Source of the DNA: Fragilaria crotonensis
Lineage: Eukaryota > Bacillariophyta > Fragilariophyceae > Fragilariales > Fragilariaceae
DNA: 64,000 bases
NCBI GenBank assembly: GCA_022925895.1
Contig: JAKSYS010000185.1
Coordinates: forward strand, 29,785 to 93,784
Direction: 5' to 3'
The notes below the pieces were generated by a model. It ran no database searches and was not told the origin of the DNA. It saw only the letters and a program-made list of their open reading frames with translations. The stretch's first letter is position 1. Every line of letters starts with the position of its first letter. Shown piece by piece: positions 1 through 37,475 of the stretch. The translations under genes and the position numbers were made by a program.

Positions 1-3000
1 CTGGTCTTGTCCGTGCTGGTCGTTCTTGCTGCTATGTTTACCAACCAGACCACCGCAACTGCTGACTTCGGACTTCACCCTGCCATTGCATTCTTCATCT
101 TCTGGTTCCTCATTGTCTGGCTCGCCATGATGGAGGGTGGACAAGGTGCCCTCATTGGTCTTCAACCCATTGACAAGGCCTTGTATGCAGAGTCCCATCC
201 CCGCTCTTTGATCAATACCAAGCTCGCACATAAGGGAGACAACATGGAGCGCTTCATCGTCGGACGTCAGTACCTCGTCGTTCTGGTCATCACCGTCATC
301 AACTTGATGGGATCTGCCATCAAGGGAGCCTCAGTCCTTGGTTTCCCAGGCTGGGCTGATGAAATCTTCCTCGCCAATGGCTTTGCCATGATCTTGACCA
401 CCATCATGGTTGGTCAATTGACAGCCCAGGTCAACGCTGCTAACTGCATGCTTGACTTCATCAACAACTATTTCATGCTGTTCACTTCCTACGTGTCGTT
501 GGGAATTGAGTTCTCTGGCCTTCTCCACTGCGTGTACCTTGTTCAGATGATCTTTTCCAAGATCACCGGCAAGCCCATCGAGTCGAACGAGCCACCACGG
601 AATGCTGCCCAAAAGCTCTTCTTCTGGGGTCGGGTTGTTATGTCTCTTGCAATTCTTGGATTCTCTCTTTCTGTCACTCTCGTCGCTCTCTTCGATGGAA
701 ACACCGGCATGTGGGCTGGTGTCCCACCGTATGTGTCAGTGATCCTCTTGTTCGTCCTGATGGCCGTTGTCGGAATGATGGAAGGTATGCAGATTGCTCT
801 CTTCGCACTCGTCAACCTCCCGGAGGAAGAACTTAAGAACTATCCTATTGCCCACGCCAACTGTCAGTTGACCTTCACCGGCCAGAACTTGCAGGCTTTC
901 TTGATCGGTCGTCAAATCTTCGTTGCCACCTGCATGTTCGTCGTTGCACGTATTGCGACCCCTACCTACACCAAGGACGATGCCAACATCTTCGGTGTTT
1001 CGGATGGATTCCAGGCGTTCTTGAACTCTGGTCTTACCGGCGCTGTTATCACCACCATCATTGGATCTCTTGCATGGCGTATCATTGCGTCGTCGTTCCC
1101 TGTTGCCTTCTTGTCCAACCCTCTGATCTACATCATCATCCGCGTTTGCCTTGTCCTCGAAAACTCTGGTATCTGTGCCGGTGCCTGGGTTCTTGGCCGC
1201 TTCAATAAGCTTATTGCAGGTTACCAGCCCGACGAGGTCTATCTTGAGGGTGCTGAACGCCACACCGCCGAACCTGTCACTCGTCGCGACGGAGACATTG
1301 ATCGCCTTCTGACTGTTATCAAGTTCATTTACTCTTCGGTCTTACTTGTGTTCTGTTTGATTGTTGTCTTTGCGGCGATGTTCACTAACCAGACAGTTGC
1401 AACTGCTGACTTGGGACTTCACCCTGCCGTTGCATTCTTCATCTTCTGGTTCCTCATTGTCTGGCTCGCCATGATGGAGGGTGGACAAGGAGCCCTCATT
1501 GGCCTTCAACCTATCGACAAAGAAAAGTATGCCGAATCCCATCCACGCGCTCTGATGAATACCAAGCTTGCGCACAAGGGCGACAACATGGAGCGCTTCA
1601 TCGTCGGACGTCAGTACCTCGTCGTTCTGGTCATCACCGTCATCAACTTGATGGGATCTGCCATCAAGGGAGCCTCGGTCCTTGGTATGCCAAAATGGGC
1701 AGATGAAGTCTTCCTCGCCACCGGTGTCGCCATGATCTTGACCACCATCATGGTTGGTCAATTGACAGCCCAGGTCAATGCTGCTAACTGCATGCTTGAC
1801 TTCATCAACAACTATTTCATGCTGTTCACTTCCTACGTGTCGTTGGGAATTGAGTTCTCTGGCCTTCTCCACTGCGTGTACCTTGTTCAGATGATCTTCT
1901 CTAAGATCACCGGCAAGCCCATCGAGTCGAACGAGCCACCACGTAATGCTGCTCAGAACCTTTTCTTCTGGACCCGCGTCATCATGTCCATTGCCATCTT
2001 AGGTTTCTGCTTGGCCGTGACACTTGTTGCCCTATTCGACGGCAAGACCGGCATGTGGGCTGGTGTCCCTCCTTATGTGTCTGTGATCATCTTGTTCATC
2101 CTGATGGCCGTTGTCGGTATGATGGAGGGTATGCAGATTGCTCTCTTTGCTCTTATCAACCTCCCTGAAGAAGAGCTCCGAAGCAGTCCGATTGCCTACG
2201 CCAACTGTCAGTTGACCTTCACCGGCCAGAACTTGCAGGCTTTCTTGATCGGTCGTCAAATCTTCGTTGCCACCTGCATGTTCGTCGTGGCTCGTATTGC
2301 CACCCCTGTCTACACCGCGGACGATGCCAACATCTTCGGTGTTTCGGATGGATTCCAGGCTTTCTTGAACTCTGGTCTCACCGGCGCTGTTATCACCACC
2401 ATCATTGGATCTCTCGCATGGCGTATCATTGCGTCGTCCTTCCCACTCGCTTTCTTGTCCAACCCTCTGATCTACATCATTATCCGTATCTGTTTGATCC
2501 TCGAGTCGTGCGGAATCTGCTCCGGCGCCTGGGTTCTTGGGCGCTTCAATAAGCTTATTGTTGGATATCAGCCCGACGAGGTCTACCTCGAGGGTGCTGA
2601 ACGCCACACCTCCGCTCCAGTCACCAAGCGCGACAAGGATATTGACGTTTCCATGACCACTGTTAAGTACTTGTACTCGATGGCGCTCTTGATCTTCTCC
2701 GTGATTGTTGTCATGGCCGCCATGTTTACCAGCCAAACCAAGGTTTCCATTGATGCCCACCCGGTTGTGGCTTTCTTGCTGTTCTGGTTCCTCATTGTCT
2801 GGCTCGCCATGATGGAGGGTGGACAAGGTTGCCTCGTTGGTCTCCAACCTGTTGACAAGGACTTGTACAAGGACTCACATAAGGTCACATACAAGAACAC
2901 GATGCTTGCCCACAAGGGAGACAACATGGAGCGCTTCATCGTTGGACGTCAATTCCTTGTTGTCCTTGTGATCACTGTTATCAACTTGTGCGGTGCCTCC

Positions 3001-3996
3001 ATCAAGGGTGCACAGGTGCTCGGACTCAGCAGTGGAGTCACTGAGGTCTTCCTCGGAGCTGGTGTTGCCATGATCTTGACTACAATTATGCTCGGTCAGC
3101 TCACTGCGCAGGTTAATGCGGCGAATTGCATGCTCGACTTCATCAACACCTACTTCATGCTCTTCACGTCGTACGTCTCATTGGGTATTGAGTTCTCCGG
3201 ACTTCTTCATTCGGTGTACCTTGTCCAGATCTTCTTCTCCAAAATCACCGGAAAGCCCATTGACTCGAACGAACCACCTCGCTCGGGTGCCCAGAAACTC
3301 TTCTTCTGGGCTCGTGTCTTGATGTCCCTTGCCATCCTTGCCTTTTCCTTGGCAGTAACCCTCGTTGCGCTGTTTGATGGCAAGACCACTATGTACGAGG
3401 GTGTGCCACCATACGCTTCCGTCATCATCTTCTTCATTCTGATGGGTGTTGTTGGTATGATGGAGGGTATGCAAATTGCACTGTTTGCGGTTGTCAACCT
3501 TCCTGAGGACGAGTTGAAGAGCTACCCTGTGGCCTTCAAGGTGTGCCAACTCACTTTTGCTGGAAGCAACTTGCAATCCTTCCTTGTTGGACGTCAAATC
3601 TTCGTCGCCACGTGCATGTTCGTTGTTGCCCGTATCGCGTCTCCGAGCTATGGAGAAGGTGATGCCAATATCTTCGGCGTTTCTGATGGTTTCCAAGCCT
3701 TCTTGAACACAGGATTGACGGGAGCCGTGATCACTACCATTATTGGGTCATTGGCATGGCGCATTGTTGCGTCATCGTTCCCAGTTGCCTTCCTCTCCAA
3801 TCCTCTGATCTACTTCATCATTCGCGTTTGCCTTGTACTTGACAGCATCGGTCTTTGCTCTGGTGCCTGGTTTATGGCGCTTATCCACAAGCAACTTGCC
3901 GGGTACCAAGTCGATGAAGTGTACATTGGTACTCCAGAGGAGCGTGCAGCCGCTGCGAAGGTGGTTGACGAGGAAGAGCCGCTACAAGAAGAATAG
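1..3996 (+). CDS. SIT: Multidomain silicon transporter (SIT), at least three fused domains, 5' end outside the window
   Basis: Silicon transporters move silicic acid across diatom membranes. The frame is open from base 1, so the gene starts upstream; the first ATG inside the window (34-36) lies within a membrane helix and is not a credible start. The protein consists of three homologous units. The same alanine-methionine codon recurs at 34, 1378 and 2722, an exact 448-codon period. Each unit has about ten hydrophobic helices and two copies of the SIT signature pair. In unit 1 these are EGGQ (residues 43-46) with GRQ (86-88), and EGMQ (259-262) with GRQ (301-303), counting from base 7. Units 1 and 2 are nearly identical over long stretches including synonymous sites; unit 3 is more diverged and two residues shorter near its start. 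The C-terminus is a short acidic tail. Known SITs are mostly single-domain; fused forms have been described in araphid pennates. Family call is very secure; the total domain number is unknown. Confidence 0.95.
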   Translation: MVLSVLVVLAAMFTNQTTATADFGLHPAIAFFIFWFLIVWLAMMEGGQGALIGLQPIDKALYAESHPRSLINTKLAHKGDNMERFIVGRQYLVVLVITVINLMGSAIKGASVLGFPGWADEIFLANGFAMILTTIMVGQLTAQVNAANCMLDFINNYFMLFTSYVSLGIEFSGLLHCVYLVQMIFSKITGKPIESNEPPRNAAQKLFFWGRVVMSLAILGFSLSVTLVALFDGNTGMWAGVPPYVSVILLFVLMAVVGMMEGMQIALFALVNLPEEELKNYPIAHANCQLTFTGQNLQAFLIGRQIFVATCMFVVARIATPTYTKDDANIFGVSDGFQAFLNSGLTGAVITTIIGSLAWRIIASSFPVAFLSNPLIYIIIRVCLVLENSGICAGAWVLGRFNKLIAGYQPDEVYLEGAERHTAEPVTRRDGDIDRLLTVIKFIYSSVLLVFCLIVVFAAMFTNQTVATADLGLHPAVAFFIFWFLIVWLAMMEGGQGALIGLQPIDKEKYAESHPRALMNTKLAHKGDNMERFIVGRQYLVVLVITVINLMGSAIKGASVLGMPKWADEVFLATGVAMILTTIMVGQLTAQVNAANCMLDFINNYFMLFTSYVSLGIEFSGLLHCVYLVQMIFSKITGKPIESNEPPRNAAQNLFFWTRVIMSIAILGFCLAVTLVALFDGKTGMWAGVPPYVSVIILFILMAVVGMMEGMQIALFALINLPEEELRSSPIAYANCQLTFTGQNLQAFLIGRQIFVATCMFVVARIATPVYTADDANIFGVSDGFQAFLNSGLTGAVITTIIGSLAWRIIASSFPLAFLSNPLIYIIIRICLILESCGICSGAWVLGRFNKLIVGYQPDEVYLEGAERHTSAPVTKRDKDIDVSMTTVKYLYSMALLIFSVIVVMAAMFTSQTKVSIDAHPVVAFLLFWFLIVWLAMMEGGQGCLVGLQPVDKDLYKDSHKVTYKNTMLAHKGDNMERFIVGRQFLVVLVITVINLCGASIKGAQVLGLSSGVTEVFLGAGVAMILTTIMLGQLTAQVNAANCMLDFINTYFMLFTSYVSLGIEFSGLLHSVYLVQIFFSKITGKPIDSNEPPRSGAQKLFFWARVLMSLAILAFSLAVTLVALFDGKTTMYEGVPPYASVIIFFILMGVVGMMEGMQIALFAVVNLPEDELKSYPVAFKVCQLTFAGSNLQSFLVGRQIFVATCMFVVARIASPSYGEGDANIFGVSDGFQAFLNTGLTGAVITTIIGSLAWRIVASSFPVAFLSNPLIYFIIRVCLVLDSIGLCSGAWFMALIHKQLAGYQVDEVYIGTPEERAAAAKVVDEEEPLQEE

Positions 3997-4453: not shown

Positions 4454-5818
4454 TTAGTTTTTGATCTGTATACCTTTGGATTTATAGGCAGATCCGTACT
4501 TCTGTTCATCGCGGCGCACCATCTCCTGCACGAGTTTGTGGCGCTCCTCCGAGTATGTCTTGTTAAGAAAAAAGATCTGTTTAGGGCCTTTGACCTTTCT
4601 ACCTTCTCGGTAGTATTCGCCAGAATTGCCTTCATTTCCCATTCCTTTGATGCAACGGACGAGTATGTCCAGATCCCCAGTAACACGAGAAAGAGGCTTC
4701 CCTTTTGTCATCAAGGTACCGTGCGCATATGTTACGTACTTATTTCGAAGCACTCTTAAATCGTCAAACCAATTATGTAGATGATAGGCGATACCATTTA
4801 CCGCATCGGTCTTGTCACCATCAATTCGTTTGAGACTGAAGGGAATGCCCCAATCGCCTTGAACGCGGCGAATATCAGGGGCGGTGAAGAGTGGATATCG
4901 GTTAGACTTCTTCACTACTTCTGGGTATTGGTCAATCTCGTCTCTTCCGTACGTCTCGTGACGCTCTCCATACATTCGTTGGTGAGTTCGTAAGGGAACG
5001 ACACGTTCGGTTGGATCCCCGATGCCATCAACACATTCACCACTAATAACGTCGGGGTGGAACCACGGAGTTTTCTTTATACAATATGGAGAGCTCTCAT
5101 AGGCAACGGTTGAAGGGGCGATTTTGGGGCGATGACAGCTTGGATCAGGGCGCAAGGCTGGGAAATCACAGGTCTGAACGGCTCGAAGGAAGTCACGAGA
5201 GAAGAATTCGTCAGCATCAGACATGATACCGACATCTTCCGGCAGCATTCCCGCGTCCTTCCAGCGCTTGACGATAGGATTGCGCTGTTCAGATTCGCGA
5301 TCCATCCACTTGAGATCTTGCCGATCTTCAAGCCAATAATCAATGTACACTTGTGTCTTGGGTCCAAACAGCGCAGAATGTGTCAAGAGATCTCCCTTCC
5401 TTGATTCCTTGTACCGAAGCGGTCGCGGGGAGGCCACGTGCGTTGTGTTGGACTCTACAAAGACAGCAACATGATAAATATCATACACCTCCATAGCATG
5501 AATCAGATGAACTTGCCAATTTTCATCAGCTACCATTGTTCCAAAGAAAATGCGACGCGGCGGACCACTATAGGGCTTGAGACCATAGCGATCGCATCGG
5601 ATGTCTATGCTTTCCCTGTCGATACGGGCATGCTCATCTTTGTACAAACTACTGACTTTGAACTTGGGAAGCGAAGCTGCAGTGTCGCGCCTTCTGACGA
5701 TGTCGCTGCCAGCTGGATTGATCGAGGTAGCATCGCATCGTAATGACGATTTCTGAACTGCCATGAGTGCATCCCGTGACATGGCCATGGATGCAAGGCC
5801 AACAATTGTTACAATCAC
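4454..5818 (-). CDS. GT17-like glycosyltransferase, type II membrane protein
   Basis: The family (beta-1,4-mannosyl-glycoprotein N-acetylglucosaminyltransferase type) transfers sugars to N-glycans in the Golgi lumen. The 454-residue frame has an FFGTMVADEN block (91-100), a VAVFVESN block followed by PRPLRYKES (about 117-139), and the acidic SDADEF motif (200-205) that matches the family's metal/nucleotide-binding DxDE-type site. A hydrophobic N-terminal stretch fits a signal anchor. The start is unresolved: the frame as given begins at GTG, the first in-frame ATGs are at 5788 and 5782, and these would cut into the anchor. The frame is also open a little upstream without an ATG, so a short upstream exon is possible. 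It lies tail-to-tail with the silicon transporter gene. GT92 or another related fold is an alternative. Confidence 0.65.
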   Translation of the reverse strand: MIVTIVGLASMAMSRDALMAVQKSSLRCDATSINPAGSDIVRRRDTAASLPKFKVSSLYKDEHARIDRESIDIRCDRYGLKPYSGPPRRIFFGTMVADENWQVHLIHAMEVYDIYHVAVFVESNTTHVASPRPLRYKESRKGDLLTHSALFGPKTQVYIDYWLEDRQDLKWMDRESEQRNPIVKRWKDAGMLPEDVGIMSDADEFFSRDFLRAVQTCDFPALRPDPSCHRPKIAPSTVAYESSPYCIKKTPWFHPDVISGECVDGIGDPTERVVPLRTHQRMYGERHETYGRDEIDQYPEVVKKSNRYPLFTAPDIRRVQGDWGIPFSLKRIDGDKTDAVNGIAYHLHNWFDDLRVLRNKYVTYAHGTLMTKGKPLSRVTGDLDILVRCIKGMGNEGNSGEYYREGRKVKGPKQIFFLNKTYSEERHKLVQEMVRRDEQKYGSAYKSKGIQIKN

Positions 5819-10763: not shown

Positions 10764-11260
10764 TGACAGTATTCGTGTAGACGGTACGCGAGTACTGGCC
10801 GACAGTACGCTGAAGGACGGTAGGTCCGGGCGTACGCATGACGGACTTGGAGCACAGGCCACTGGCGGACATGGCTTTGGGCGACGTAGTAGGGTTGACC
10901 ATGGTGAATGTAAGTAGTACAAATGTGTAGATATGTAGTGGAACAATAGGAGGGAAGTAAAGGCCTTTACTTTGTGTGTTAATGGAAGTTGTAGATGTAG
11001 AATAATGAGAATAGAAGTGGGGGAACCAAATGATGAAAAAGTGAGGTGCAGATGAGACTCGAGGCTAATGTAGATGGCATCCGATTTAGTACCAGGGTCG
11101 TGTAGACCGGTACGTAGAAATGAGATGGCATCTACATTAGTCCGGATGGCATCTCAAATTCAAATGGTTACGCGGGACAAGAGGTCTGATTCTCAGGAGC
11201 TAGTGTTGTGACGGAAAGTGGTCAGACGACTCATGACGGTGCAACAGTAGATCTCTATCA
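10764..11260 (-). repeat. 3' LTR (left copy), 497 bp
   Basis: Direct repeat of 21805-22305. It starts tgacagtattc and ends gatctctatca on the plus strand, so both ends are TG...CA. Relative to the other copy it lacks 4 bases in three places (one c, one g, and a tg pair) and has one t/g difference. It contains a copy of the first codons of the upstream ORF (ATG at 10902). Confidence 0.95.
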
Positions 11261-12847
11261 CCCTCTTGGATCAGATCTCAGGTCCCAAAGTTGGTGAAGA
11301 AAGCATGTGGTCAGGTAGGATGCAGAAAATCTTCTTGAGGTGTGGATCAATTTTGCCAGAAAGTTGTGTCTTGGTGAGAATATCAGCAAGTTGATAGTCA
11401 CAAGGGATCCAGTGAAGTTGGTGGATACCGTCTTGTTGGCCTTGGCGGACAAAATGGAAGCGTCGTTCAATGTGACGGGTCTTGCGGGTGAGTTTGCCAT
11501 TTTGGCAATCTGGACAGTGGCTTCATTGTCAATCATTAAGATTGCAGGAGTGGTTGGTAAGCGCTGGGTGGATTCACGCCATTGTTTTGTGCCAAGATAG
11601 AGCATGTCATAGAGGAGCATGCGGATGTGGGCAGTGGCCATGGTGGCAGAGCATGCAGCCATATATTCAGCTTCAGAGGTTGACATGGCAACTGGAGTGG
11701 GCATGGTTGAGTTTGCTTCAATAAGTGCTCCATTGTGGAAGATCATGTAGCCAATGGTTGAGCGGCCAGTGTCTGGGCAGTCTTGCCAGCTGGCATCAGA
11801 GAAAACAGTAAGATCAGCATAGGGAATGCGATGTTGTAGGCAGATCTCATAGATAGGATTGGATGTGCAATCAGGGTAGAACTTGAGTGCATAGTAGGGA
11901 CGGCGGCGTAGGTAGCCGATGAGCCAGGTGAGGGCACGGAAGTCAAGAATTCCAGGAGCAATACAGGCTTTAGCAAGTTTGCAGACAGCAAAGAGGATAT
12001 CAGCTCTGGTGTTGTATGCCAGGTAGAGGAGAGTGCAGACGGCGGAGCGAAAGGGGAGTCGTTGCTGCTTTTGTGCAACAAGTGCAATGTCTTGTTCTGT
12101 GACAGGACGGTTTTCTTTGCTGAAGGTGTAGTCTGGCGGGAATGGAGTGTCGCGTTCGGGGAATTCGGAATTCGGGTCATAACGTTGAAGGGTGTTCAAG
12201 ACATAACGGTGCTGGTCCAAGGTATAGGTTGAGTCTTGGTGCTGGTGAATGCGCATTTGCAGGAACCATTGTGCAGGACCAAGGAATTTGACATCAAAGC
12301 GGTTTTTGACGGAATCTTCAAATTGTTTTTCAATGGAATCATTGCTGCCAGCATACAGCATATCATCAACGAAGAAAAGGAGGCGGAGCCATTGGTTGTG
12401 TTTGTCATATCGGACAAAGTAGGATGGTTCAGATTGGGATTGGATAAAACCTTGGGAGTATAGCCATTCAGAAAATTCAATGTTCCAGTATTTGCCAGAG
12501 TAGACAAGGCCATAGATTCCTTTGTCCAGGAGAAGTGGTTTGCCAAAGAATTTAGCATATTCAGGGAAATGAAAAGCATATTCCAATGGGAGCTTGACAA
12601 AGTGGCGGCCAATGACTTTAGCTTGCAAGTAGGCGCCAATAAAGTCAGCACTTTTGAGTGTGCGTCGGGAAGCACAAATTGTGGAGAGAAGGAGCTTGAC
12701 CCCTCTTGAAGATGCACAGGGTGACCAAGTGTCCTCAAAGGGTTGAGGAATTTCAATTGGTTGGACTTTTGGTGTTGGGGAGGCAGTGGCATTAGCAATG
12801 TCTTGACGCTGTTGAAGGAGATGTTGCTGATGTGCGGCTTTTGCTTT
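11258..12847 (-). pseudogene. pol: Copia pol, 3' part: reverse transcriptase and RNase H, frame broken
   Basis: A 456-residue frame (11258-12628) contains the reverse transcriptase core with FVDDMLYAGS (D88, D89) and the Copia RNase H block with FSDASWQD and STSEAEYMA. Coherent pol sequence in the same frame continues upstream of the first Met to about 12845 (DTWSP motif near 12690). The protein shifts out of the preceding integrase frame at 12843-12850. Near 11498-11505 the conserved RNase H tail (KTRHIERR, then ADILTK) lies in another frame, which would end at the TGA at 11273-11271. Each break is one base. Either the copy is dead or the assembly has lost bases. Confidence 0.85.
11261..11267 (-). 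other. Polypurine tract next to the 3' LTR
   Basis: On the minus strand the seven bases AAGAGGG lie immediately before the LTR TG end. This is the position and composition expected for plus-strand DNA priming. Confidence 0.7.
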
Positions 12848-12849
12848 CT

Positions 12850-15207
12850 TTAAAGACGTTTCTCCAAGTCGCCTCGGGCGACCAGGCGAGCTTTAAGTTT
12901 CTCAAGTTTGCCAGTTGCTGTTTGTTTGGCTTTGAGAACAAGTTTGACAGGAATGATAGGGTCAGCTTGGGATGGAGTTTGTCCAAGGATGAATGTGCCA
13001 TGATCAATGAGATTCTTGATTTCCATGCGAATTGCATGTAGCCAGGCAGAGCGTATGTCATCATCAAGTTTGAGGACAGCTTTAAGAGATTGTGGCTCAG
13101 GAAGGTATTTGTCAACAGGTTCAGCAGGTTCTTCTTGACTGATAGTTGCATTATCAATGGTGAGCATGGCAGTGTGAATGGGATCAATGGAAGGAGGATC
13201 TTCATTACACTCTTGGAAGTAGAGGGTCATCATCTTTTGTAGATTGGAATGGCAGTGTTGGTGGCCAATGTAGTTCACTTGGTGTGGTGTTGGTGGTGTA
13301 GGGCCATGTTGATCATCATTATGGGAGGCATCAGGAAGTGCCACAAGTGATGTTGGGAGTTCGGAGGCATCAAGGAAATGTGATGGAGGATTGCCGAGAT
13401 CAGCGGCTGAGCCAGTTTGGTGAAAAGTTGCAGGTTCAGAGTTGTCAGCAGTGTTGCGGAGGCCATTGGGATTGAAATGGGAGCGTATAGGAACAGCTCC
13501 AGCAAAGGGCTTTGAATCAAAGCATAGGGCAGAGTTGAAGTCTTCATCAAAGTAGGCGTCACGTGTGATAATGAGGCTTTGCGGTTGATCAGGAGAATAG
13601 ATGAGCCAGCCTGCAGAGTTTTCAGGGAATCCAAGGAATATACCACGGGAAGCGCGTTGGAGTTGCTGCTTATAGGTAATGATCTTGTTGCGGAAAGTTG
13701 GTTCATAACGCTTGAAGAAGGTTGGGCAACCAAAGATGCGGAAATTGCCTAGATTGGGCTTGCGTTTGTAGCTGAATTGATATGGAGTTGTTGGGATTCC
13801 ATTGATGTCAGTGACATTCTTGGCTGGGCAGACATTGATAATGTGGACAGCATAGGCATGTGCATGGTGGAAGAAGGCACCGCCAAGTCGGGCATTGTTG
13901 AGGAGGGTATTGGCTGTGTTGTGGACTTCACGCCATTTAGCTTCACAGATACCGTTCATTTCTTGATGTTCTGGGGCAGCAGCTTCAACTTTTATGCCAA
14001 GGTTGGTGCATTCGGTGATGAATTTTGCAGAGGTAAATGCGGTTCCAGCATCGGTGCGGATGAAGCGGACGGATTGTGTTCGGCCAAGGAGTTCTGTTTG
14101 GGTCAGCCATGACTTGAGGGCTGTGATGATGGATGCTGTGCTTTCAGTTGGTAGACCAATCCAGCCAGTAAGTTTGCCAGGTGTTGTGACAATGAATAGA
14201 TAGGCAGAATAGTTGGTGTTTGTTGTAAGACCATAACGGAATGGGTTGCGCATCAAGTCAAGATGTAGTCGATGGAAGGGATCGGTACCTTCACGTTGCG
14301 GGGTCTTGTTTCGAGCACGTTTTTGGCTGATAGATATACGGAGAGGCCAAGTGTTTGGATCAATGGTTGGAGAGAGTACATGGTCATTCCAGGTTTGGTG
14401 AAGAGATCCAACCATTAGATTTCGGAAATTGCGGTAAGCAAGGCGTCGAGCAACAAGCTCGAGAGGTAGGGTGGTTACGGATCGTCGTTGATCAGGGTTG
14501 ATGGTGTCAACAGTGTCAGCAAAGTGGTCTTCTGCTGGTGAAGAGTCAGATTCAAGGTTGACATTGGGTAAAGATATGGCTGAGAAGGCTTGATGTGGTG
14601 GTAGTTCACGGCGTAGGATGGGCCACGTGTACGTAGAATTGTTTGGAAGTTGGATGGTGGTGGCACGATTGTGAATCAAGACACTGAAGTTTTGTGTGCA
14701 TGATAGTGCGGTCAAGGAAAGTAGGCGATGGCTGAGGCCTTCAACATAGTAGACATCAGTTAGGCCAAGGATGGATTTCATACCATCATCAGTAGTGAAG
14801 GGACATTCTGTGGTGCCTTTGTAGGTAGACAATTTAGTACTGCCATCAGCAAGGGAGACAGGTACACTGCAGGGTGTGACATCATGGAGGTCACTGAAGA
14901 CTGGTGTGTAGTGGCTGGTTGCACCACTGTCAGGAAGCCAATTTTCAAGAAGAGGTGGGCCAAAACGTTGATGAGGAGATTGTGGGTCATCAGGGAAATA
15001 GTATGTGGCTCCAGAATTGGGAGGAGAGTGATTGCCAGAAGGTTGAAAGTCTTGATCAAGGAGGTGTTGGTTGATCTCCATTTGGGGGGAGGGCTGGGTT
15101 TGGCCAAGGGATTGAGTCAGGAGTGTCATCCATTGGGTCAAGAGATGAAGCACGGAAAGCTTGGTGATAAACATTTTCTTGCATGTTTTCTCCTGAGTCA
15201 GTGACAA
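12850..15207 (-). CDS. pol: Copia pol, 5' part: protease and integrase
   Basis: This 785-residue frame carries the aspartic protease motif LPDSGATSHY (D93) and a Copia integrase with the D-D-35-E triad: D317 in HLDLM, D386 in RTDAGT and E422 in CEAKWRE. A KARLVARGD motif marks the start of reverse transcriptase just before the frame stops at 12850. The first 50 or so residues look non-authentic. A short overlapping frame ending at 15056 (with RAYFVTDSGE) looks like the real link between gag and protease, implying further one-base shifts near 15060 and 15240. Confidence 0.88.
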   Translation of the reverse strand: MSLTQEKTCKKMFITKLSVLHLLTQWMTLLTQSLGQTQPSPQMEINQHLLDQDFQPSGNHSPPNSGATYYFPDDPQSPHQRFGPPLLENWLPDSGATSHYTPVFSDLHDVTPCSVPVSLADGSTKLSTYKGTTECPFTTDDGMKSILGLTDVYYVEGLSHRLLSLTALSCTQNFSVLIHNRATTIQLPNNSTYTWPILRRELPPHQAFSAISLPNVNLESDSSPAEDHFADTVDTINPDQRRSVTTLPLELVARRLAYRNFRNLMVGSLHQTWNDHVLSPTIDPNTWPLRISISQKRARNKTPQREGTDPFHRLHLDLMRNPFRYGLTTNTNYSAYLFIVTTPGKLTGWIGLPTESTASIITALKSWLTQTELLGRTQSVRFIRTDAGTAFTSAKFITECTNLGIKVEAAAPEHQEMNGICEAKWREVHNTANTLLNNARLGGAFFHHAHAYAVHIINVCPAKNVTDINGIPTTPYQFSYKRKPNLGNFRIFGCPTFFKRYEPTFRNKIITYKQQLQRASRGIFLGFPENSAGWLIYSPDQPQSLIITRDAYFDEDFNSALCFDSKPFAGAVPIRSHFNPNGLRNTADNSEPATFHQTGSAADLGNPPSHFLDASELPTSLVALPDASHNDDQHGPTPPTPHQVNYIGHQHCHSNLQKMMTLYFQECNEDPPSIDPIHTAMLTIDNATISQEEPAEPVDKYLPEPQSLKAVLKLDDDIRSAWLHAIRMEIKNLIDHGTFILGQTPSQADPIIPVKLVLKAKQTATGKLEKLKARLVARGDLEKRL

Positions 15208-16592
15208 AGTAGGCTCGTTGTTGATTGCGGGGGAGCGGAATTTTCATTGTTTGAAGATGATCGAGAGGATGGGCCTCGATTGGAAGTTGCATTGCGTGCG
15301 GGGTTGGTGCAGTTGCGGGAATAGTGACCGAGTCTGCCGCAGTTGTTGCAGACAATGTTTGCAGCATTGGATTGGTTGCGGTTTTGATTGTTAGTGTTAC
15401 CGTTGGTAGATGGGCGGTGATTTGAATTCGGCAGTTGACGAAGAGGTGGTCGATTTGTACGCTGTTGTTGCGTTGATGGACGTGTTGACGGAGCGTTGGT
15501 GCGACGGTGGTTGTTGGTGTTTTGCGGGGTTTGTCGCTGGGCGTTCGGTAAGGGAGGTCCACGGTGTTGTCGATGCTGTTGTCGGGTGGGGTTGTTTCCA
15601 CCATTGTTGGTATAAGGACGTAGGATTGAGCTGAAAGCTTGTTGTTGTCGTTGAGTGAAGTTTCGAATAGTGGTGCCTTGTTGTGGACGGAAAGTCGTTT
15701 GGCGTGCAGAGTTTGCATGTTGATTAAAGTGGCGGTGACTCATAGATGGGATTGTAAGACCACGGGATTCATCGATGTTGAGAAGATGACTTTCAAGTTC
15801 GGAGAATTGTGGCAGAGCTTCGTCGTTTAGTTCGGCGCGGCGAATGTCGGCATCAAAACGTTGGTATGATGCAGCATAAAAGGAATGATTGCTTCCTCCA
15901 CGGACAGTTCTTTTAATCAGTTCGGCATCAGAGTTTGGTATTCCAGCATGGTAACAATCACGCGAGATGGTGCGGATGCGGTTAAGATAGGAAGTAGCAA
16001 CTTCGTTGTGCGGTTGTTTGATAGAGCAAAAAGCTTCGCGAGTGCGTTCGATATGATCTGGCGTTAAGGGAGCACAGTGGCGACGCAGGGTGAAGATAGC
16101 AGTTCTTGCATCTGGAGGTCCATCAATGATGTGTTTTTGACAGGGTTCACTGATGTTGGTGAAGATCAAGTTGTAGAGAGCTGTGCCAACAAATGGATGG
16201 GAGTAACATACTTGTTGGGGCCAAAGATCAAAGACTTGGCGAGTCCAGGGGGAAATGTTACAGACAATGCGGAGATTGTCCATAAAAGTATTGAAATGGC
16301 GTCGACGGGCTTGTAAATCTGTTGGATAGGCCAGTTTGCGAAGATTTGCATTTTTGGCGTACTTCAGAAGAGTCTTTGTTAGATCTTCAATCGGAGGATA
16401 GGTGAAATCAGTCCGGGTGGAAGATGTCAGCACATCAGGTGATGTGGGCTTCAACTGTTTTGGATCTTCTTCAGAGTCATGGTCAGTATCATTGTCAAAG
16501 AATGTTTCAATTGTTGGTGGATAGGAAAAGGTAGCGTGGGTCGCCGGGCGCGGAGTTTGTTGACGGGACTCAAGGTTTTGAGTTTTTGTCAT
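15198..16592 (-). CDS. gag: Copia gag with zinc knuckle
   Basis: The 464-residue protein has a capsid-like helical middle region (about 70-300), a Gln/Asn/Arg/Thr-rich basic linker, and a CX2CX4HX4C knuckle (CNNCGRLGHYSRNC, 415-428) for RNA binding. It begins at an ATG and precedes pol as expected. Its last residues probably reflect a frame slip, because the neighbouring frame continues with a plausible gag-protease linker. Confidence 0.88.
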   Translation of the reverse strand: MTKTQNLESRQQTPRPATHATFSYPPTIETFFDNDTDHDSEEDPKQLKPTSPDVLTSSTRTDFTYPPIEDLTKTLLKYAKNANLRKLAYPTDLQARRRHFNTFMDNLRIVCNISPWTRQVFDLWPQQVCYSHPFVGTALYNLIFTNISEPCQKHIIDGPPDARTAIFTLRRHCAPLTPDHIERTREAFCSIKQPHNEVATSYLNRIRTISRDCYHAGIPNSDAELIKRTVRGGSNHSFYAASYQRFDADIRRAELNDEALPQFSELESHLLNIDESRGLTIPSMSHRHFNQHANSARQTTFRPQQGTTIRNFTQRQQQAFSSILRPYTNNGGNNPTRQQHRQHRGPPLPNAQRQTPQNTNNHRRTNAPSTRPSTQQQRTNRPPLRQLPNSNHRPSTNGNTNNQNRNQSNAANIVCNNCGRLGHYSRNCTNPARNATSNRGPSSRSSSNNENSAPPQSTTSLLCH

Positions 16593-16784
16593 TTTGTTGA
16601 TTTATTTCCGGTCATTGAGGAGTTTTGTGTAGATTTGGGTATTGACATTTTGACGGTTGAAGAATTTCGTCCTCATGTTTTGGGAGCAGCGACGGATTTA
16701 GTGACGGATTTTGTTGCACGGGGTTCGAATCCGTAGGTGATGTGTTTTTGGAACGTATATTTTCGGTCGCGGTAGAAAATGTTG

Positions 16785-17483
16785 TCAAAACCGGGTGGTT
16801 GGGGTTCGAGTCGGTTGTAGCCGGGACGTGAGGTGTTTTTGCGTTTTCGGCGTTATGATGCTTGAAAATGCGTCAGAAATGCGCTGAAGTGGTCCAGGTG
16901 TTGCATTTGCCGATTGAGGTGACCTTGAGGGTGTTTCGGTGTGCGAAGTGTCGGTTTCAGGCGAGTTTTGCTGTGAAATCGCGAGATTTTGTTGTGTTCC
17001 GGGCAGAGATTGAGTTTCTTGCACTTGTTCCTCATACGTGGTTTCTTCGTCGGTTTCGAGGGGATTTTCAGCAGTATTGGCGTCGTTTTGCGTGGAAAAT
17101 TCGCGTGCAGTGTCGTTTTGTGCAGGAATTTCGTGCTGGAGGTCCGGGGTTCGAGTCGGGGGCTGATTTAGTGACGAACGTCGTGTTTGTACCGCTAGAA
17201 AAGCGTGATGTGTACCCGTAAACGTGTTTTTATCCTCTTGGAATTTAATTACTGGTTGACTTTCAGCTAAATCTTGCGCATTTGGACAGAAATTGCTGTC
17301 GTGCATAGAAATAGGTAAGTCACCAGTAAAATATCCAGGATAATTCAATTGAGGTGGACTAGACTCACCTGTTCCATCAAGATTGATGGGTGAGTCAGGT
17401 CCCCTTGAATCAATATATGGGTATTCTGGGTGGTTGTGTTTCTCTCGATAGAAATAAGAGAGGTGATTGTTGAAAAGTTGCAA
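16785..17483 (-). CDS. Extra 5' ORF of the Copia element, last segment (unknown function)
   Basis: This 232-codon frame continues coherently upstream of its first Met to about 17590 (with FPGYPLDPSLHHFPIWK), where it meets the frame of the next segment at a T/C homopolymer. A possible single protein therefore spans both. The tail is disordered and rich in Gln, Thr, Glu and Pro, and it stops 193 bases before gag. No known domain is recognised. Being in the same orientation between LTR and gag suggests it belongs to the element, either captured or an ORF1-type gene. Confidence 0.5.
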   Translation of the reverse strand: MQLFNNHLSYFYREKHNHPEYPYIDSRGPDSPINLDGTGESSPPQLNYPGYFTGDLPISMHDSNFCPNAQDLAESQPVIKFQEDKNTFTGTHHAFLAVQTRRSSLNQPPTRTPDLQHEIPAQNDTAREFSTQNDANTAENPLETDEETTYEEQVQETQSLPGTQQNLAISQQNSPETDTSHTETPSRSPQSANATPGPLQRISDAFSSIITPKTQKHLTSRLQPTRTPTTRF

Positions 17484-18520
17484 TTCGGGATCACGGAGGG
17501 CATCATTGAGATGCGGAGCGCCCAGGCTCGATAAACGTTGTTTCCAGATGGGGAAATGGTGTAAACTGGGATCAAGCGGATAGCCAGGGAAAATGGAATC
17601 TTTGTGGGATCACGGGCAATGTGATACATTTGTGAGTGCTCATTTCGCCAAAGTTCAGCAGGATTATGCTGAATCCAGTCTGGGTCATCCAAATTGTAGG
17701 TTTGGAGAGGCTTGGCAGCTTGCTTGTAGAAGAGGGACTTGACTGATTCCTTGGTGTAGGGATTTCCATCAGGATCAATGATGATTGGTTGTTGGTCATG
17801 ATCAAGGGTGACAGGGAAGATTCCAGCTCTTGCTGTTGGGATGGCCATTTCAGTTGGAGAGCCATAAGAATAGGTTGGGCCACAGAGTGGTGAACCTTGG
17901 AAGATAACACCATGTGAAGGTGGGCAGTTCTTGGGAAGGATGCCTGTTGGATCTTTTGGATCAATCAGTTGCACAACGCGGAATAGGATGTACTCAGAAT
18001 GCGGTAGAAAATCGATTGAGTCATTGGCAGAATTGGTTGCAATTGGGGTGACTGTCTGCAGGGCATCGATGTAACGTAGGGGATCATGATACTGAAGATT
18101 CATGATAGTTGTGATGTTGAATGGTTTGCAAACAACAAAATTGATGGCAAGGGCTGTGTCAGTGGAGTATGAAGTGGCCAGCTGAACATCTGAAGGTTTG
18201 GTAACCATTGGGAAGGAAACTGAGAAGGCAGTGAGCAGGTGGTCTGCTGGTGGTAGATTGCCAACAATGATCTCATACTGAGAGAATTCAGGGTCTCTGG
18301 AGATGCAGATTTTGTGGTGAGCCATGCCATGTTGAAGGATGGCGAAACGGATGAACTCTTGAGCAATGTGTAGTGTTGTGGCTTGGGTGTCTGCATGGGT
18401 GTCAAAGGTATTGACAAAGGCAGTTGTGAATGGATTTGCAGCTCTGAATTGTGATTCAATATGTGTGACACTTGATTGGAGATTTTCAAGTTGATGATGG
18501 GTTAATTCATCGGGTGGCAT
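17345..18520 (-). CDS. Extra ORF of the Copia element, globular segment (unknown function)
   Basis: This 391-codon frame looks like a folded protein: mixed hydrophobic pattern, few low-complexity tracts, and a region with GSPLCGPTYSYGSP near residue 210. It continues upstream of its first Met to about 18650 (HEIARDINSSAA), where an AAA run separates it from the next frame by one base. Downstream it passes into the last segment near 17590. No family is recognised. A structural protein of the element is possible but unproven. Confidence 0.5.
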   Translation of the reverse strand: MPPDELTHHQLENLQSSVTHIESQFRAANPFTTAFVNTFDTHADTQATTLHIAQEFIRFAILQHGMAHHKICISRDPEFSQYEIIVGNLPPADHLLTAFSVSFPMVTKPSDVQLATSYSTDTALAINFVVCKPFNITTIMNLQYHDPLRYIDALQTVTPIATNSANDSIDFLPHSEYILFRVVQLIDPKDPTGILPKNCPPSHGVIFQGSPLCGPTYSYGSPTEMAIPTARAGIFPVTLDHDQQPIIIDPDGNPYTKESVKSLFYKQAAKPLQTYNLDDPDWIQHNPAELWRNEHSQMYHIARDPTKIPFSLAIRLIPVYTISPSGNNVYRAWALRISMMPSVIPNCNFSTITSLISIERNTTTQNTHILIQGDLTHPSILMEQVSLVHLN

Positions 18521-19017
18521 CGGGAACTGATCAATATCCTGGAAGGTGTCTTGAATGAAGTAGGGTAGTTTTCGGAATGTTGTTGACTTGGGAAATAAAC
18601 TGAGTGCTGCAGCCGAAGAGTTGATATCACGAGCGATTTCGTGAAGATTTCAGGGTAGAAGAGATGCTTTGGGTATCCAAGTGTGTTGTAGTTTCTGTGA
18701 TGAACAAGGTACATCATTCTCAGAGCATAGATAAATGCAGTTGCACACTTTGACATGATTTCTGACTGATCATCATCCAGGTCATTGAAGGAAGATGGGA
18801 GGTTCTGCGGAAATAGTTCACGTTGTGGCGATCGCAGATGTGCGAGCAATAGATAGGTTGCCCGATTCAGTGTGTGGGTCATGCATTCGACTGATAGAAT
18901 GTCAGACAAGGGGCGTCCCATATGGTAGGGAGCTCGTGTGATGTGAAGGGATCGACTGTTGATTGAATAAAAATACCAGAAAAGGTGGTGCCGATTGATA
19001 TCACGGATGTAGTTCAC
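18502..19017 (-). CDS. Extra ORF of the Copia element, segment with conserved-looking core (unknown function)
   Basis: This 171-codon frame starts inside a coherent region. The same frame is open back to the stop at 19072-19074, with HCIFLPELFGCTPAVNYI upstream of the Met. The segment before it ends at that single in-frame TAA, so the two may have been one ORF. From about 18650 onward the authentic reading moves to the neighbouring frame. No recognised motif. Confidence 0.45.
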   Translation of the reverse strand: MNYIRDINRHHLFWYFYSINSRSLHITRAPYHMGRPLSDILSVECMTHTLNRATYLLLAHLRSPQRELFPQNLPSSFNDLDDDQSEIMSKCATAFIYALRMMYLVHHRNYNTLGYPKHLFYPEIFTKSLVISTLRLQHSVYFPSQQHSENYPTSFKTPSRILISSRCHPMN

Positions 19018-19071
19018 AGCCGGGGTGCATCCAAATAGTTCAGGCAGAAAGATGCAATGGTGATGCTTGTG

Positions 19072-20088
19072 TTAACGCAGATTGGCAAGTCGCGGAGGCG
19101 AATAGGGCCATTTTGTCATCATGTAGAATAGCATCTGGGAAGGATAGCTCTGCGGAGCATTGTAGTCCTCTTCTTGGAACATTCGGAAAGGGTTGAGATG
19201 AATTTCCGAAAGATTATCGTCGGGGCGATAGGGTGGGTCCGGGAATAAACTGGGTAGCATTCTTGCTGGTGGTTGGTACTCTGAAGGTAAGTCTTCTTCT
19301 TGGGCTTCATTTGCTGAGAGTAAGTCGTTGGGTTGGTCATCATCAAATGATTTGTTTTCCTCCATGCAAAGCATTGCAAAGTGTCCTTCATCATCATGTG
19401 AGTGAAAAGGAGGAGAAACAGGGTAAGCAAAACTGTTGTCATTACTAGGTAAATTATTACTGTCAGAGTAATAATTTATCCCAGTGTTGATTTCAGGGTT
19501 GTCCTCATCAGGTAAATCCTCAAGTTTGATTGGAACAGGGTGCTGGACTTCATCATGAAGAGTGGCTTGACTGCTTGTAGGGTTTGTGTTGGACAACGTG
19601 CAGTGGGCCAAGTGGGGAAGATTGAGTCCCGTATCGGTCTTAACAACTGTAGTCAAATATACAGTAGTGTCTCTGCGATGGTAAGGCGGGGAAGCACCGG
19701 TGGTTGGTGACGGCGTCCCAGGGCTTGGTGATACATCTGTACTGCGTACGGGAGAGCAGTAAGAGTAGGCTGGCGAACAGAAGGGGTATCGCGGCGTAGA
19801 AAGGTCGGAGAAGCATCGCGGTGTGTTCGCTGTATTGGAGCGCGGAGTGTAGCTCTCGGAGGAGCTCGAAGGGGGTAGGCTGATATTTTCGTCGACGTCA
19901 GCGTATCCGGGAATGATGACATCATGGTTCTCATCAATGACGTCAGGACGGTTCTGATACGGTTGGAGGGCGCTTTCCAGGTGAGCGAGTAAATTTTGTG
20001 GGTGACAAGTGTCCAGCGAGCGAAGAGATTCTGGGGTTGTCTGTTTCAGAATTTTGCAAAGTTCCAACGTCAAGAACTGCACTTTCAT
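19072..20088 (-). CDS. Extra ORF of the Copia element, disordered acidic/proline-rich segment
   Basis: The 338-codon frame is rich in Pro, Ser, Asp and Tyr, with SPSP/TPR-type motifs and acidic stretches (for example LEDLPDEDNPE). It overlaps the preceding frame by 146 bases in another phase and ends at a single TAA before the next coherent segment. It could be a linker or regulatory region of a long polyprotein. No homologue is recognised. Confidence 0.45.
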   Translation of the reverse strand: MKVQFLTLELCKILKQTTPESLRSLDTCHPQNLLAHLESALQPYQNRPDVIDENHDVIIPGYADVDENISLPPSSSSESYTPRSNTANTPRCFSDLSTPRYPFCSPAYSYCSPVRSTDVSPSPGTPSPTTGASPPYHRRDTTVYLTTVVKTDTGLNLPHLAHCTLSNTNPTSSQATLHDEVQHPVPIKLEDLPDEDNPEINTGINYYSDSNNLPSNDNSFAYPVSPPFHSHDDEGHFAMLCMEENKSFDDDQPNDLLSANEAQEEDLPSEYQPPARMLPSLFPDPPYRPDDNLSEIHLNPFRMFQEEDYNAPQSYPSQMLFYMMTKWPYSPPRLANLR

Positions 20089-21943
20089 CTCTTCGATTCT
20101 CGAATGTTTCGAGGATGGGATCCGTTGGAGTGTCTTCTTCTGGTTCTTCAGCGGGGGAAACGGCGGTTAATGCGGTGCTGACGAGGCGTAGGGCGGTTTT
20201 CAAAGTGTCCAAATCGCCATTGCCGTAATTTTCGGGCAGATTGCGAAGGAAGTGGCGGAAGAGCAGGAGTTTCTTTTGGGTTCCTTTCGGTGGCTCTTTT
20301 TCGGGATTGCGGTGAAGATCTTCAAGGGCTTCAACAAGGGAAAGCAGATCTTGGTGGAGGGTTTGTAAACCCTTAGAGTCGTCATGTTCGACGAGTGTTT
20401 CGACAAGGCGGGGAAGGTTGTATGTAACGCCTTCCGGGTTGCGTTCAAGGGCATGAGGGGAGCTTTGTTTTGGCGGCCATGTCAGGTTAATTTTCGAGCA
20501 AGCATGGTCGCGGGTGTTCTTCAAAATAGATTGCAGCTTCTTAAAAGGGCTTGTGTAGACCGTTTTTGGTAGTCCTCTGGTAGTAGTAGTGTCCTTCATC
20601 GTTGTAGTGTTGTCCATAGTATTCGTTGTGTCCGTAGTAGTTAAATCGTTTGTCGTTGTCGTCAATTCGGCCGCGTTGGGGGATCTTGATAGCAATTGTT
20701 TGCTCTTCGACCAGATGAGGGTCGGAATTCGGAAGAAGGGGAGCGCTGCGGGTTTTCTGTCATCATCTTGGTTGTTGGAAAGGAATGGGACAACACTCTG
20801 AGTAGTAGTATCTGTAGGTCGCTCATCTTGGTGGCGAACGGGATCATCCTCGACACGGCGAGGGAAAATAAAGAGTCTGCGCTTCGGAGGGGTCTGGAAT
20901 GCTTCATCAGACATGGGGTAGGCCGCAAAAGTAGGGATGGTGGGGTCGGGACAAGAAGCAATGTTGGTCGATGGACGGTCGACGGCGGCAGTAGTAGTCG
21001 TTGGATCCTTGGTAACGTTGGTAGTTTCTTCAGTTGGCATGCTTACGTTGGTTTCTTCTTCTTCTTCTTCTTCTTCTTCTTCTTCTTCTTCTTCTTCTTC
21101 TTCTTCTTCTTCTTCTTGATGATGATGATGCTTGGGCTTCTTGGAAGTCTTCTTGTCCATTTCAGTAGTAATCACAGTTGAGTCGAGGTCGCGAAATTCC
21201 TCGAGAATAGTATCGATATCGTCGTCGTTGGTGGCGCCACTTTTGTTGGAGAAAGTGCGCTTCTTCTTGGTAATGTTTGGGTCCTTCTTAATCTTCTGAT
21301 CGTCACCAGAAGTAGGGGTAGTCGGGAACATAAGGTTGGCAAGCTTGGATTTCTTTGGGGATCCGTATGCTAAGGCTCCATGGTAGAGGAAAGGGTGAGT
21401 GGGAGTGCCTTCAGGGACTGGACTACTGCCAAGGGTGGCAGGGACATCATTGATGTCATCAAAGGTCTCAGTGTTGACAGGCTTGGCCTTCTTGGGGCGG
21501 GTGGGAGTGGTAGTTGGGGTGTTGGTCTTCATGGTCAAGTCTTTGTTGTTGTTGTTGAACTTCAAGATTTGTTTTGTTGGGCTCTGGTCGTCAAGTTCCT
21601 GAGTTTTGGCGGGAGGTAGTTTCGTAGTTGCACTGTCGCATAACTGTAGTTTTTCAACGGCGTGTCCGAGTGCTAGTGCGGTAGACGTAGACGTTGTCGT
21701 AGTAGTAGTAGGTACGGTAGTGTCGTGCTTCTGGACGGTGCCAGTAGACGAGTAGACCTTCGACGGTAGTGTGCCTCTGATCGGTGGTACAAGGCGAGCA
21801 ACCATGACAGTATTCGTGTAGACGGTACGCGAGTACTGGCCGACAGTACGCTGAAGGACGGTAGGTCCGGGCGTACGCATGACGGACTTGGAGCACAGGC
21901 CACTGGCGGACATGGCTTTGGGCGACGTAGTAGGGTTGACCAT
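19943..21943 (-). CDS. LTR-initiated long ORF of the Copia element (unknown function, low complexity)
   Basis: The 666-codon frame starts at an ATG in good context (CACCATGG) inside the 5' LTR, reads through the LTR end and the primer-binding site, and continues into the internal region. About the first 45 residues are therefore LTR-encoded. The middle is Thr/Pro/Lys-rich, with a pure poly-Glu tract from a GAA microsatellite. The C-terminal third (LPRLVETLVEHDDSKGLQ, then LLSLVEALEDL) looks helical. No known domain. It is the most 5' of several consecutive ORFs that may once have been one long reading frame. Confidence 0.5.
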   Translation of the reverse strand: MVNPTTSPKAMSASGLCSKSVMRTPGPTVLQRTVGQYSRTVYTNTVMVARLVPPIRGTLPSKVYSSTGTVQKHDTTVPTTTTTTSTSTALALGHAVEKLQLCDSATTKLPPAKTQELDDQSPTKQILKFNNNNKDLTMKTNTPTTTPTRPKKAKPVNTETFDDINDVPATLGSSPVPEGTPTHPFLYHGALAYGSPKKSKLANLMFPTTPTSGDDQKIKKDPNITKKKRTFSNKSGATNDDDIDTILEEFRDLDSTVITTEMDKKTSKKPKHHHHQEEEEEEEEEEEEEEEEEEEEETNVSMPTEETTNVTKDPTTTTAAVDRPSTNIASCPDPTIPTFAAYPMSDEAFQTPPKRRLFIFPRRVEDDPVRHQDERPTDTTTQSVVPFLSNNQDDDRKPAALPFFRIPTLIWSKSKQLLSRSPNAAELTTTTNDLTTTDTTNTMDNTTTMKDTTTTRGLPKTVYTSPFKKLQSILKNTRDHACSKINLTWPPKQSSPHALERNPEGVTYNLPRLVETLVEHDDSKGLQTLHQDLLSLVEALEDLHRNPEKEPPKGTQKKLLLFRHFLRNLPENYGNGDLDTLKTALRLVSTALTAVSPAEEPEEDTPTDPILETFENRRDESAVLDVGTLQNSETDNPRISSLAGHLSPTKFTRSPGKRPPTVSEPS
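21053..21117. repeat. (TTC)n microsatellite, encodes poly-Glu on the minus strand
   Basis: About 21 uninterrupted TTC triplets, read as GAA codons in the LTR-initiated ORF. Its length is likely to vary between copies and strains. Confidence 0.95.
21787..21804 (-). other. Primer-binding site next to the 5' LTR
   Basis: The minus strand reads TGGTTGCTCGCCTTGTAC directly after the LTR. The TGG start matches the complement of a tRNA CCA end. The priming tRNA was not identified. Confidence 0.65.
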
Positions 21944-22305
21944 GGTGAATGTAAGTAGTACAAATGTGTAGATATGTAGTGGAACAATAGGAGGGAAGTA
22001 AAGGCCTTTACTTTGTGTGTTAATGGAAGTTGTAGATGTAGAATAATGAGAATAGAAGTGGGGGAACCAAATGATGAAAAAGTGAGGTGCAGATGAGACT
22101 CCGAGGCTAATGTAGATGGCATCCGATTTAGTACCAGGGGTCGTGTGTAGACCGGTACGTAGAAATGAGATGGCATCTACATTAGGCCGGATGGCATCTC
22201 AAATTCAAATGGTTACGCGGGACAAGAGGTCTGATTCTCAGGAGCTAGTGTTGTGACGGAAAGTGGTCAGACGACTCATGACGGTGCAACAGTAGATCTC
22301 TATCA
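21805..22305 (-). repeat. 5' LTR (right copy), 501 bp
   Basis: Direct repeat of 10764-11260 with TG...CA ends. It contains the start codon of the long upstream ORF (21943). It ends 200 bases upstream of the best methyltransferase start, so the insertion may have replaced that gene's promoter or 5' exon. Confidence 0.95.
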
Positions 22306-36255: not shown

Positions 36256-37475
36256 ATGACATTCACTGCGTTTCGAGTATCCGGGGATCTCCTGCGCGTT
36301 GTTGCAGTATGCATGATCCTTTATAGGTTATTTGTAAAGAAGAATGCTCAAGGTGAGTCTTACATAGTAGCAGATGGAGGAGTTGGAGACGTACACCGGA
36401 GTCTTCAGCATCCAGCATGTCCTTGCACTCAGTCTTTCTCACGAATCTTTTGCTCAAATTAAAATCCAACACAAAAGGAATTTCGCTCAAGACACAAAAG
36501 GCTCTTCTATTCGTCAGCGTCACACGGTATCTAGACTTGTTCACAACATTTCATAGTACCTTCAACACCATGATGAAAATATTTTACATTACTTCATCGC
36601 TCTTCATTTGCTGCTCGATTTCATGCCTACACCAACTCAAATCGACGTACAGACCTGATCAGGACATGGCTGGGGTGCACTTCCGGTATTATGTCATTGC
36701 AACGATTCTAACCTTCAGTTTCCCATGCATTCTTTCGCTTAGTGTTGGCGCTGACATTGATCCTATGGAAGTATGCTGGTATGCTTCCATTCTTTGGGAG
36801 CCGCTTGCTCTAATTCCTCAAGCCATACTGTACCGTCGGTATCGACAGGTCGAGGGCCTCACGGGAGCATCATTCTTGTTCCTTATGGGGCTATACCGGT
36901 TCATTTACATTGGCAACTGGATTTACAGAGCCAATACATCAACAATCTTTAAGCATCATCCGCTTCTCTATTTGTGTTGCGGAGCTCAAGTATTGGTAGC
37001 GTCGTGGGCACTCTTTTGGCCTGATGGAAGTAACGAAGGCAACATGTTGGCTGCGCCCATTCTTACTCAGATCTTTCAGTTTTGCCGAGAAGTATACTGT
37101 GGTATGCTTGCGCTTCTACTGTTATTTGGCCTGATCGTTATTGCTCAGCCCGCTTTTCTGGACAGAGATTCTGCTGCGTTAGTGGACTTTGCTATGTGTG
37201 TGGGTCTTGTGCTGCTCGTTCTTACACCTCCCGCCTGCTTCTTTTATATGTATTGTGACAAGACACGCGCATTTGCCAATCTCAGGGGAGACGATCATGA
37301 TGAAGTCCTTGATGAACTGACCCTGCCCCTGGTGGAGCCAACAAGTGAAGGCACGGCAAGCGACGACCCAACGCTCGTCGAGCGTACGTCACTTCCTACT
37401 GAATCGCAATCCGACACTGAATATGAAGCTCCATCCACATCGCCGAATGACGCGGACGGGATCGCAGTGGTCTGA
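36256..37475 (+). CDS. KDEL receptor-like (ERD2 family) protein, tandem copy B
   Basis: Exons 36256..36352 and 36478..37475 (125-base intron, GTGAGT...AAAG) have the same exon lengths as copy A (97 and 998 bases) and give 364 residues. The junction again restores the GISLKTQ...RYLDLF block. It differs from copy A in the luminal loops, for example SLSVGADIDPMEVCWYAS and IYRANTSTIFKHH. The acidic tail is kept (DELTLPLVEPTSEG). Conserved intron position and length-matched exons prove tandem duplication rather than retroposition. Nothing suggests it is inactive. Confidence 0.9.

Follow-up and report, generated by a model that had tools for sequence, protein, structure and literature searches.

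The window analysed here is a stretch of 64,000 nucleotides from the diatom Fragilaria crotonensis, and it carries on its minus strand, at 10764-22305, a Copia long terminal repeat (LTR) element of 11.5 kb. A preliminary description of the window had recognised this element and drawn attention to about 5 kb of coding sequence between its 5' LTR and gag that matched no known family, offering a separate gene of the ORF1 (upstream open reading frame) type as one possible reading. We found that the additional sequence belongs to Gag itself, as a giant in-frame N-terminal extension containing a conserved core domain, and that a sister family in the same genome lacks this core. The features of the element, from the 3' LTR to the 5' LTR, are as follows.

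10764..11261, minus strand: 3' LTR of 498 nt, from the comparison of the LTR pair
11258..12628, minus strand: second pol frame, with RVT_2 reverse transcriptase (RT) and the part downstream of it
12850..15207, minus strand: first pol frame, with Pol_BBD, a weak integrase match and SH3_retrovirus
15198..16592, minus strand: Gag, with a capsid-like region (named by position) and a CCHC zinc knuckle
16593..17429, minus strand: tail of the extension and linker (HPEYPY...LAVQTRRSSL...), the frame being left and then regained ahead of Gag in the window copy
17430..19240, minus strand: conserved core, about 630 amino acids (aa) in relatives, interrupted in the window copy by two of the frame switches and by a stop codon in frame; boundaries approximate, set by homology
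19241..21943, minus strand: N-terminal half of the extension, a low-complexity region in which S, T, N, Q and P abound, with basic clusters resembling nuclear localization signals (PKKSKL, KKKR), an acidic tract and weak selection, at a dN/dS of about 0.5 in other pairs and against C840
21053..21117, minus strand: (GAA)n tract encoding poly-Glu, reading TTC on the plus strand
21793..21804, minus strand: primer-binding site, TGGTTGCTCGCC, which pairs with the 3' end of tRNA-Met(CAT)
21805..22305, minus strand: 5' LTR of 501 nt with TG...CA ends; the ATG at 21943 lies inside it and opens the frame of the extension

The two LTRs with TG/CA ends, the adjoining tRNA primer site and an integrase placed before the RT are those of a Ty1/copia element, as the preliminary description had it. 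The LTRs are near-identical, with 496 matches and one mismatch over lengths of 498 and 501. The primer site TGGTTGCTCGCC directly adjoins the 5' LTR and matches a tRNA-Met(CAT) gene of the same genome over 12-13 nt, the CCA end being assumed. The exact site was present in 14 of the 74 loci examined; L061-L063 and L066, which belong to subfamily B, lack it (here and below, C-numbers name contigs or loci of the same genome and L-numbers name loci whose DNA was read). The CA at the end of the LTR and the TGG of the primer site (21793-21805) together form an ATG, and in the window, C840 and C354 this ATG shares the frame of the extension. Other full-length copies, proposed at the outset as a check, do exist: LTR pairs were found in five siblings, and the outer LTR-to-LTR spans were 11.46-11.55 kb in C218, C430, C450 and C10, so that about 11.5 kb is the usual size of the family; the fifth, C602, spans 9.1 kb. 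Four of the siblings are flanked by matching 5-bp target duplications (C218 GTATC, C450 GTAGA, C430 AACAT, C10 CATAC), and the element of C602 reaches the end of its contig in this comparison. The window copy shows no duplication (flanks AACTT versus GAACC). The simplest reason is recombination between two elements, an explanation also given in PMC2806351 for Phaeodactylum elements without target duplications, and the assembly may be at fault instead. Within its family, the copy in the window is a dead and decayed member.

Between 21943 and 16785 the minus strand holds frames of 666, 338, 189 (171 from a start codon), 391-434 and 232-274 aa. Aligned with the undamaged relative C840, these pieces follow one another in order as a single protein that is interrupted by one in-frame stop and three net switches of frame. 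C658 has the extension, Gag and the CCHC knuckle in one natural frame, which continues into Pol_BBD and is 2,498 codons long. One ancestral long frame from 21943 to 16785 had been proposed from the letters alone, and the comparison bears this out. The damage estimated there, one TAA and three or four events of a single base, was close but slightly low. The frame also departs and returns in the linker before Gag; the window copy has three stops in this linker and, compared with C430, C218 and C602 in turn, three length differences of one base. The pol region of the window is broken as well, and C218 has one frame of 1,394 codons across the same two pol pieces. In the first of these, Pfam places Pol_BBD at residues 90-168, a weak rve match at 356-412 (E 0.2) and SH3_retrovirus at 480-556; RVT_2 lies in the next frame.

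Among the eight core-containing loci read, five (L059-L063) have one frame in which core sequence is joined to Gag, or at least to its beginning, that of L059 taking in the core only from about residue 208 onward, and the remaining three (L064-L066) are broken. The frame of C840 is already open ahead of the primer site, in the presumed LTR, and the same holds for the window from 21943. These predicted translations establish the additional 5 kb as an in-frame N-terminal extension of Gag, about 1,700 aa long, in a Copia lineage that is abundant in the genome, and they place its predicted start at an ATG within the LTR or at the junction of LTR and primer site. The separate ORF1-type gene of the preliminary description was therefore rejected: in undamaged relatives no stop separates the frame of the extension from Gag, and in C658 it stays open into pol. 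Chance frames and a non-coding origin were likewise rejected, because relatives with about 30-57% identity hold the frame open, one of them for 2,498 codons, and because synonymous change exceeds non-synonymous change.

The two parts of the extension differ in character. The N-terminal half is fast-evolving and probably disordered; S, T, N, Q and P make up 38-42% of it and hydrophobic residues 27-34%, versus 31% and 40%, respectively, in the core. Basic clusters of the form K[KR]x[KR] occur in it in the window, C840, C430, C658, C53 and one of two C254 pieces. A scan also noted the peptide QLKITEFF in both subfamily B copies scanned, at residues 242-249 of L061:375-7868 (plus strand) and residues 207-214 of the 1,884-aa frame of L063, and in none of the six other pieces scanned. 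It fits the PCNA-binding (PIP-box) pattern, and a motif so short may be chance.

The core, corresponding to about residues 861-1500 of C840, is the best-conserved part of the extension and is followed by a tail of about 100 residues and the linker into Gag. A genome search with the middle frame gave at least 110 matches at 27-100% identity, and a second, overlapping search at least 77. We computed the ratio of non-synonymous to synonymous substitution rates (dN/dS) by the Nei-Gojobori method as averages over whole segments; the values are rough, since several dS are near saturation. For the core they were 0.28 for the subfamily pair C840-C254 and 0.12 for C658-C548, the pair C840-C658 being saturated, and the window piece gave 0.17, 0.26 and 0.32 against C840, C254 and C658. 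The close pairs C658-C53, C658-C368 and C840-C180 gave 0.13-0.19, and two very close window pairs gave 0.32-0.42 from a handful of changes. The corresponding values were 0.07-0.10 for Gag and 0.47-0.53 for the N-terminal half, and third-position changes outnumbered those at first and second positions in every deep pair. With between-subfamily ratios of 0.12-0.32, the predicted core of about 630 aa is under natural selection. The cores of C840 and C658 share 30% identity, and their Gag sequences 64% over a longer stretch and 84% over a central one; the window RT segment is 93% identical to both.

The preliminary description had found no family for the conserved middle part, and our searches gave it no convincing relative either. 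Pfam searches with the window frames, two whole proteins and 54 members returned only sub-threshold hits in the extension, and a longer core profile found nothing among PDB sequences at E up to 1. A 24-sequence profile matched armadillo (ARM) repeats at the end of the core (best E 0.0046; 30-50 residues, mostly designed repeats), which we took as chance because no other part of the core matches. AlphaFold models of the core were poor, with a mean predicted local distance difference test score (pLDDT) of 39.7 for 765 aa and 54 rows and of 52.7 for 358 aa and 31 rows. Fold searches with these low-confidence models gave PDB hits at E >=1.2 and viral hits at E >=0.22, none convincing, which leaves room for a known fold. 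In viral contigs, two stretches fit a pattern and none was confirmed as a relative.

As we compared the Gag regions, a group at about 70-74% identity had no match to the core. The one core-less locus read, C354, has a frame that is open at either end and 966 codons long; it runs from ahead of the primer site into Gag and holds the N-terminal half, the tail and the start of Gag without the core. This contiguous core-less junction was crossed at 22 listed loci, plus C470 and C31. The whole 301-aa query was matched free of stops in 14 of the 22 and the aligned stretch in 19, the stops falling in C306 (1), C510 (9) and C133 (4). The same flanks lie 2,035-2,049 bases apart in 11 core-bearing loci (C340, C330, C613, C25, C203, C113, C636, C869, C376, C198 and C278). 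In a DNA alignment with C354 the missing segment comprises 1,874 bases of the C25 copy, plus about 150 bases absent just before it; the 7-base repeat ATCACCC stands at both ends of the 1,874-base segment in C25, and the in-frame junction of C354 falls there. In its tail, C354 shares 69% identity with C25, 40% with C658 (subfamily B) and 28-34% with subfamily A. Since subfamilies A and B and the C25 type all carry the core, its loss in the ancestor of C354 would be the simplest history, as judged from one sequenced junction.

To relate core and RT, we merged 150 of 152 Gag matches into 137 loci, sought the core upstream and the RT 2.5-7 kb downstream, and scored 150 of 430 RT candidates. The core was present upstream at 94 of the 137 loci, and 84 of these had the lineage RT downstream. 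The core-less junction was found at 21 loci, none of which had an RT match downstream among the candidates scored. The remaining 22 loci had neither core nor junction; 17 of them had the RT, and C198, C278 and C376 among them have a core-sized gap. The core-less family, which is known from its junction and Gag region and not from its 3' part, thus also appears to be without a detectable lineage RT near Gag. The TR-GAG elements of plants are Gag-only, non-autonomous LTR elements, and the core-less family, with Gag retained and no match to the lineage RT among the candidates scored, may resemble them.

Taken together, the data probably reflect a selected Gag extension with an accessory core that can be supplied in trans and that was lost alongside the RT in non-autonomous derivatives. 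The element protease would cut the polyprotein into the Gag particle protein and the extension, basic clusters would steer the extension to the nucleus, and the core would act in the particle or at later steps as an accessory factor that, like pol, can be provided in trans. Derivatives that keep Gag and have no lineage RT could lose the core for this reason, dropping it by short-repeat deletion, and would still multiply on the products of full elements. Such a pattern suits a parasite family, one that retains the parts required by its own RNA and Gag and discards those available from full elements. That an orphan domain of about 630 aa acts in trans in a giant diatom Copia Gag, and that a non-autonomous offshoot lost it with pol and kept Gag and the rest of the extension, we regard as a serious, if tentative, possibility. 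More tentative still is the combination of protease release, nuclear steering and a trans-acting core, which is drawn from position and short motifs.

The core could instead be a structural part of the particle, matrix-like or a second capsid domain, that is needed in cis with Gag. Its position in frame with Gag, the purifying selection on it and a first half predicted, at low confidence, to be helical would agree with such a role, but a family without the core exists at at least 22 loci, 19 of 22 being stop-free across the junction and C354 entering Gag in frame, and the core diverges faster than Gag (30% versus 64% and 84% identity between C840 and C658); we think this role unlikely. Rapid change would rather be expected of a factor that interacts with the host, such as one that counters silencing or antiviral defence and evolves under pressure from the host, and both the core and the N-terminal half do outpace Gag, with the core missing from one subfamily. 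However, neither motifs nor sequence, nor the fold searches with their poor models, linked the core to a known suppressor, and all measurable dN/dS were below 1 as whole-segment averages, with no positive selection, which makes such a factor rather improbable.

The clean loss of the module would also suit an origin by capture, in which an ancestral element took up part of a host gene. Against this, the lineage RT lies 4-9.5 kb downstream at 90 of 108 core places, which are therefore element copies, and no host homologue was recognised within this genome, the other 18 places not having been inspected singly; we give capture little credence. The preliminary description had held that copies lacking the region would point to an unrelated insertion. 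Such copies were found, at least 22 core-less loci in one family, yet the subfamily nearest to C354 has the core, and the junction of C354 has the look of a secondary loss. An insertion or non-coding sequence peculiar to one copy is refuted by dozens of diverged copies, several of them in frame and under selection.

Several observations weigh against a trans-supplied core lost together with the RT, which we nevertheless prefer. Ten of the 94 core-bearing loci have no RT match, and since 150 of 430 candidates were scored, a diverged RT of the core-less family would be missed. The members of that family are not independent events, and the RT counts are not adjusted locus by locus for contig ends. 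The pattern scan found no K[KR]x[KR] cluster in C354 or in the other C254 piece, and cleavage and the putative roles in particle and nucleus are suggested by position and short motifs only. Finally, four young window-family copies, C97, C218, C430 and C450 (L009, L010, L011 and L013), share a frame break near residue 208 of the C840 core that C602, C697 and C10 do not have, so copies moved in trans may be able to do without the core, or a ribosomal frameshift may be used.

Extra coding sequence is known from other LTR elements. In the Ogre/Tat elements of plants, one extra coding part sits upstream of gag. These belong to Ty3/gypsy, whose RT and domain order the window element does not have; it carries RVT_2 after the integrase and an SH3-like domain, and its extra coding part is fused in frame to Gag. 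Giant elements with extra coding, Ogre and Burro, are described from Ty3/gypsy (PMC6431247). The planarian Burro shares with the window element a giant polyprotein with extra domains beside Gag and, in one species, has an upstream accessory ORF, but its Gag forms the N-terminus of the polyprotein, whereas the Copia lineage has the extra part before Gag. The additional ORFs (aORFs) of plant LTR elements are similar in adding coding sequence, sometimes upstream of gag-pol; in the passages of PMC7264820 compared, they lie mostly between pol and the 3' LTR, and no in-frame giant extension of Gag is described there.

The closest published relatives by class are the diatom Ty1/copia elements CoDi1-CoDi7 (Maumus et al. 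2009, PMC2806351), which share the Copia domain order and, in most families, TG/CA LTRs. Full-length CoDi elements measure 5,182-8,062 bp versus 11.5 kb in the window, which confirms the unusual length, although size describes the CoDi groups more than it defines them. An upstream ORF1 has been looked for in diatom Copia elements, and the core domain is not described in the part of the text of PMC2806351 that we compared; the ORF1 table (Additional file 1), a possible home of a related ORF1, lay outside the comparison. Among the titles and abstract openings listed in a literature search, we recognised no description of a diatom Copia element with such a Gag extension. The Copia class itself is known; what seems to be new is a Copia Gag with a giant N-terminal extension. 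A large selected extension ahead of Gag, with its core missing as a unit in a sister family, offers a natural comparison for the role of an extra Gag domain, and if the core does act in trans, this natural deletion experiment separates the parts required in cis from those supplied in trans. Annotation that expects Copia elements of 5-6 kb could split or miss such elements.

Elsewhere in the window, a frame of 1,329 aa at 7-3996 (plus strand) contains three stretches matching the Silic_transp family (Pfam, E 0). Fused genes with multiple silicon transporters (SITs) have reportedly been found in Synedra, and this frame resembles them. A silicon transporter with three domains agrees with a diatom host, although transporters of this kind are also reported from organisms other than diatoms. 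A frame of 682 aa at 59085-61133 has no Pfam match, and over its end, at 60001-62000, the strands are strongly asymmetric, with GC and AT skews of about 0.26 and 0.35, respectively. A match to glycosyltransferase family 17 at 4454-5818 (minus strand) and one to an endoplasmic reticulum (ER) lumen protein retaining receptor at 36417-37475 (plus strand) are probably ordinary host genes.

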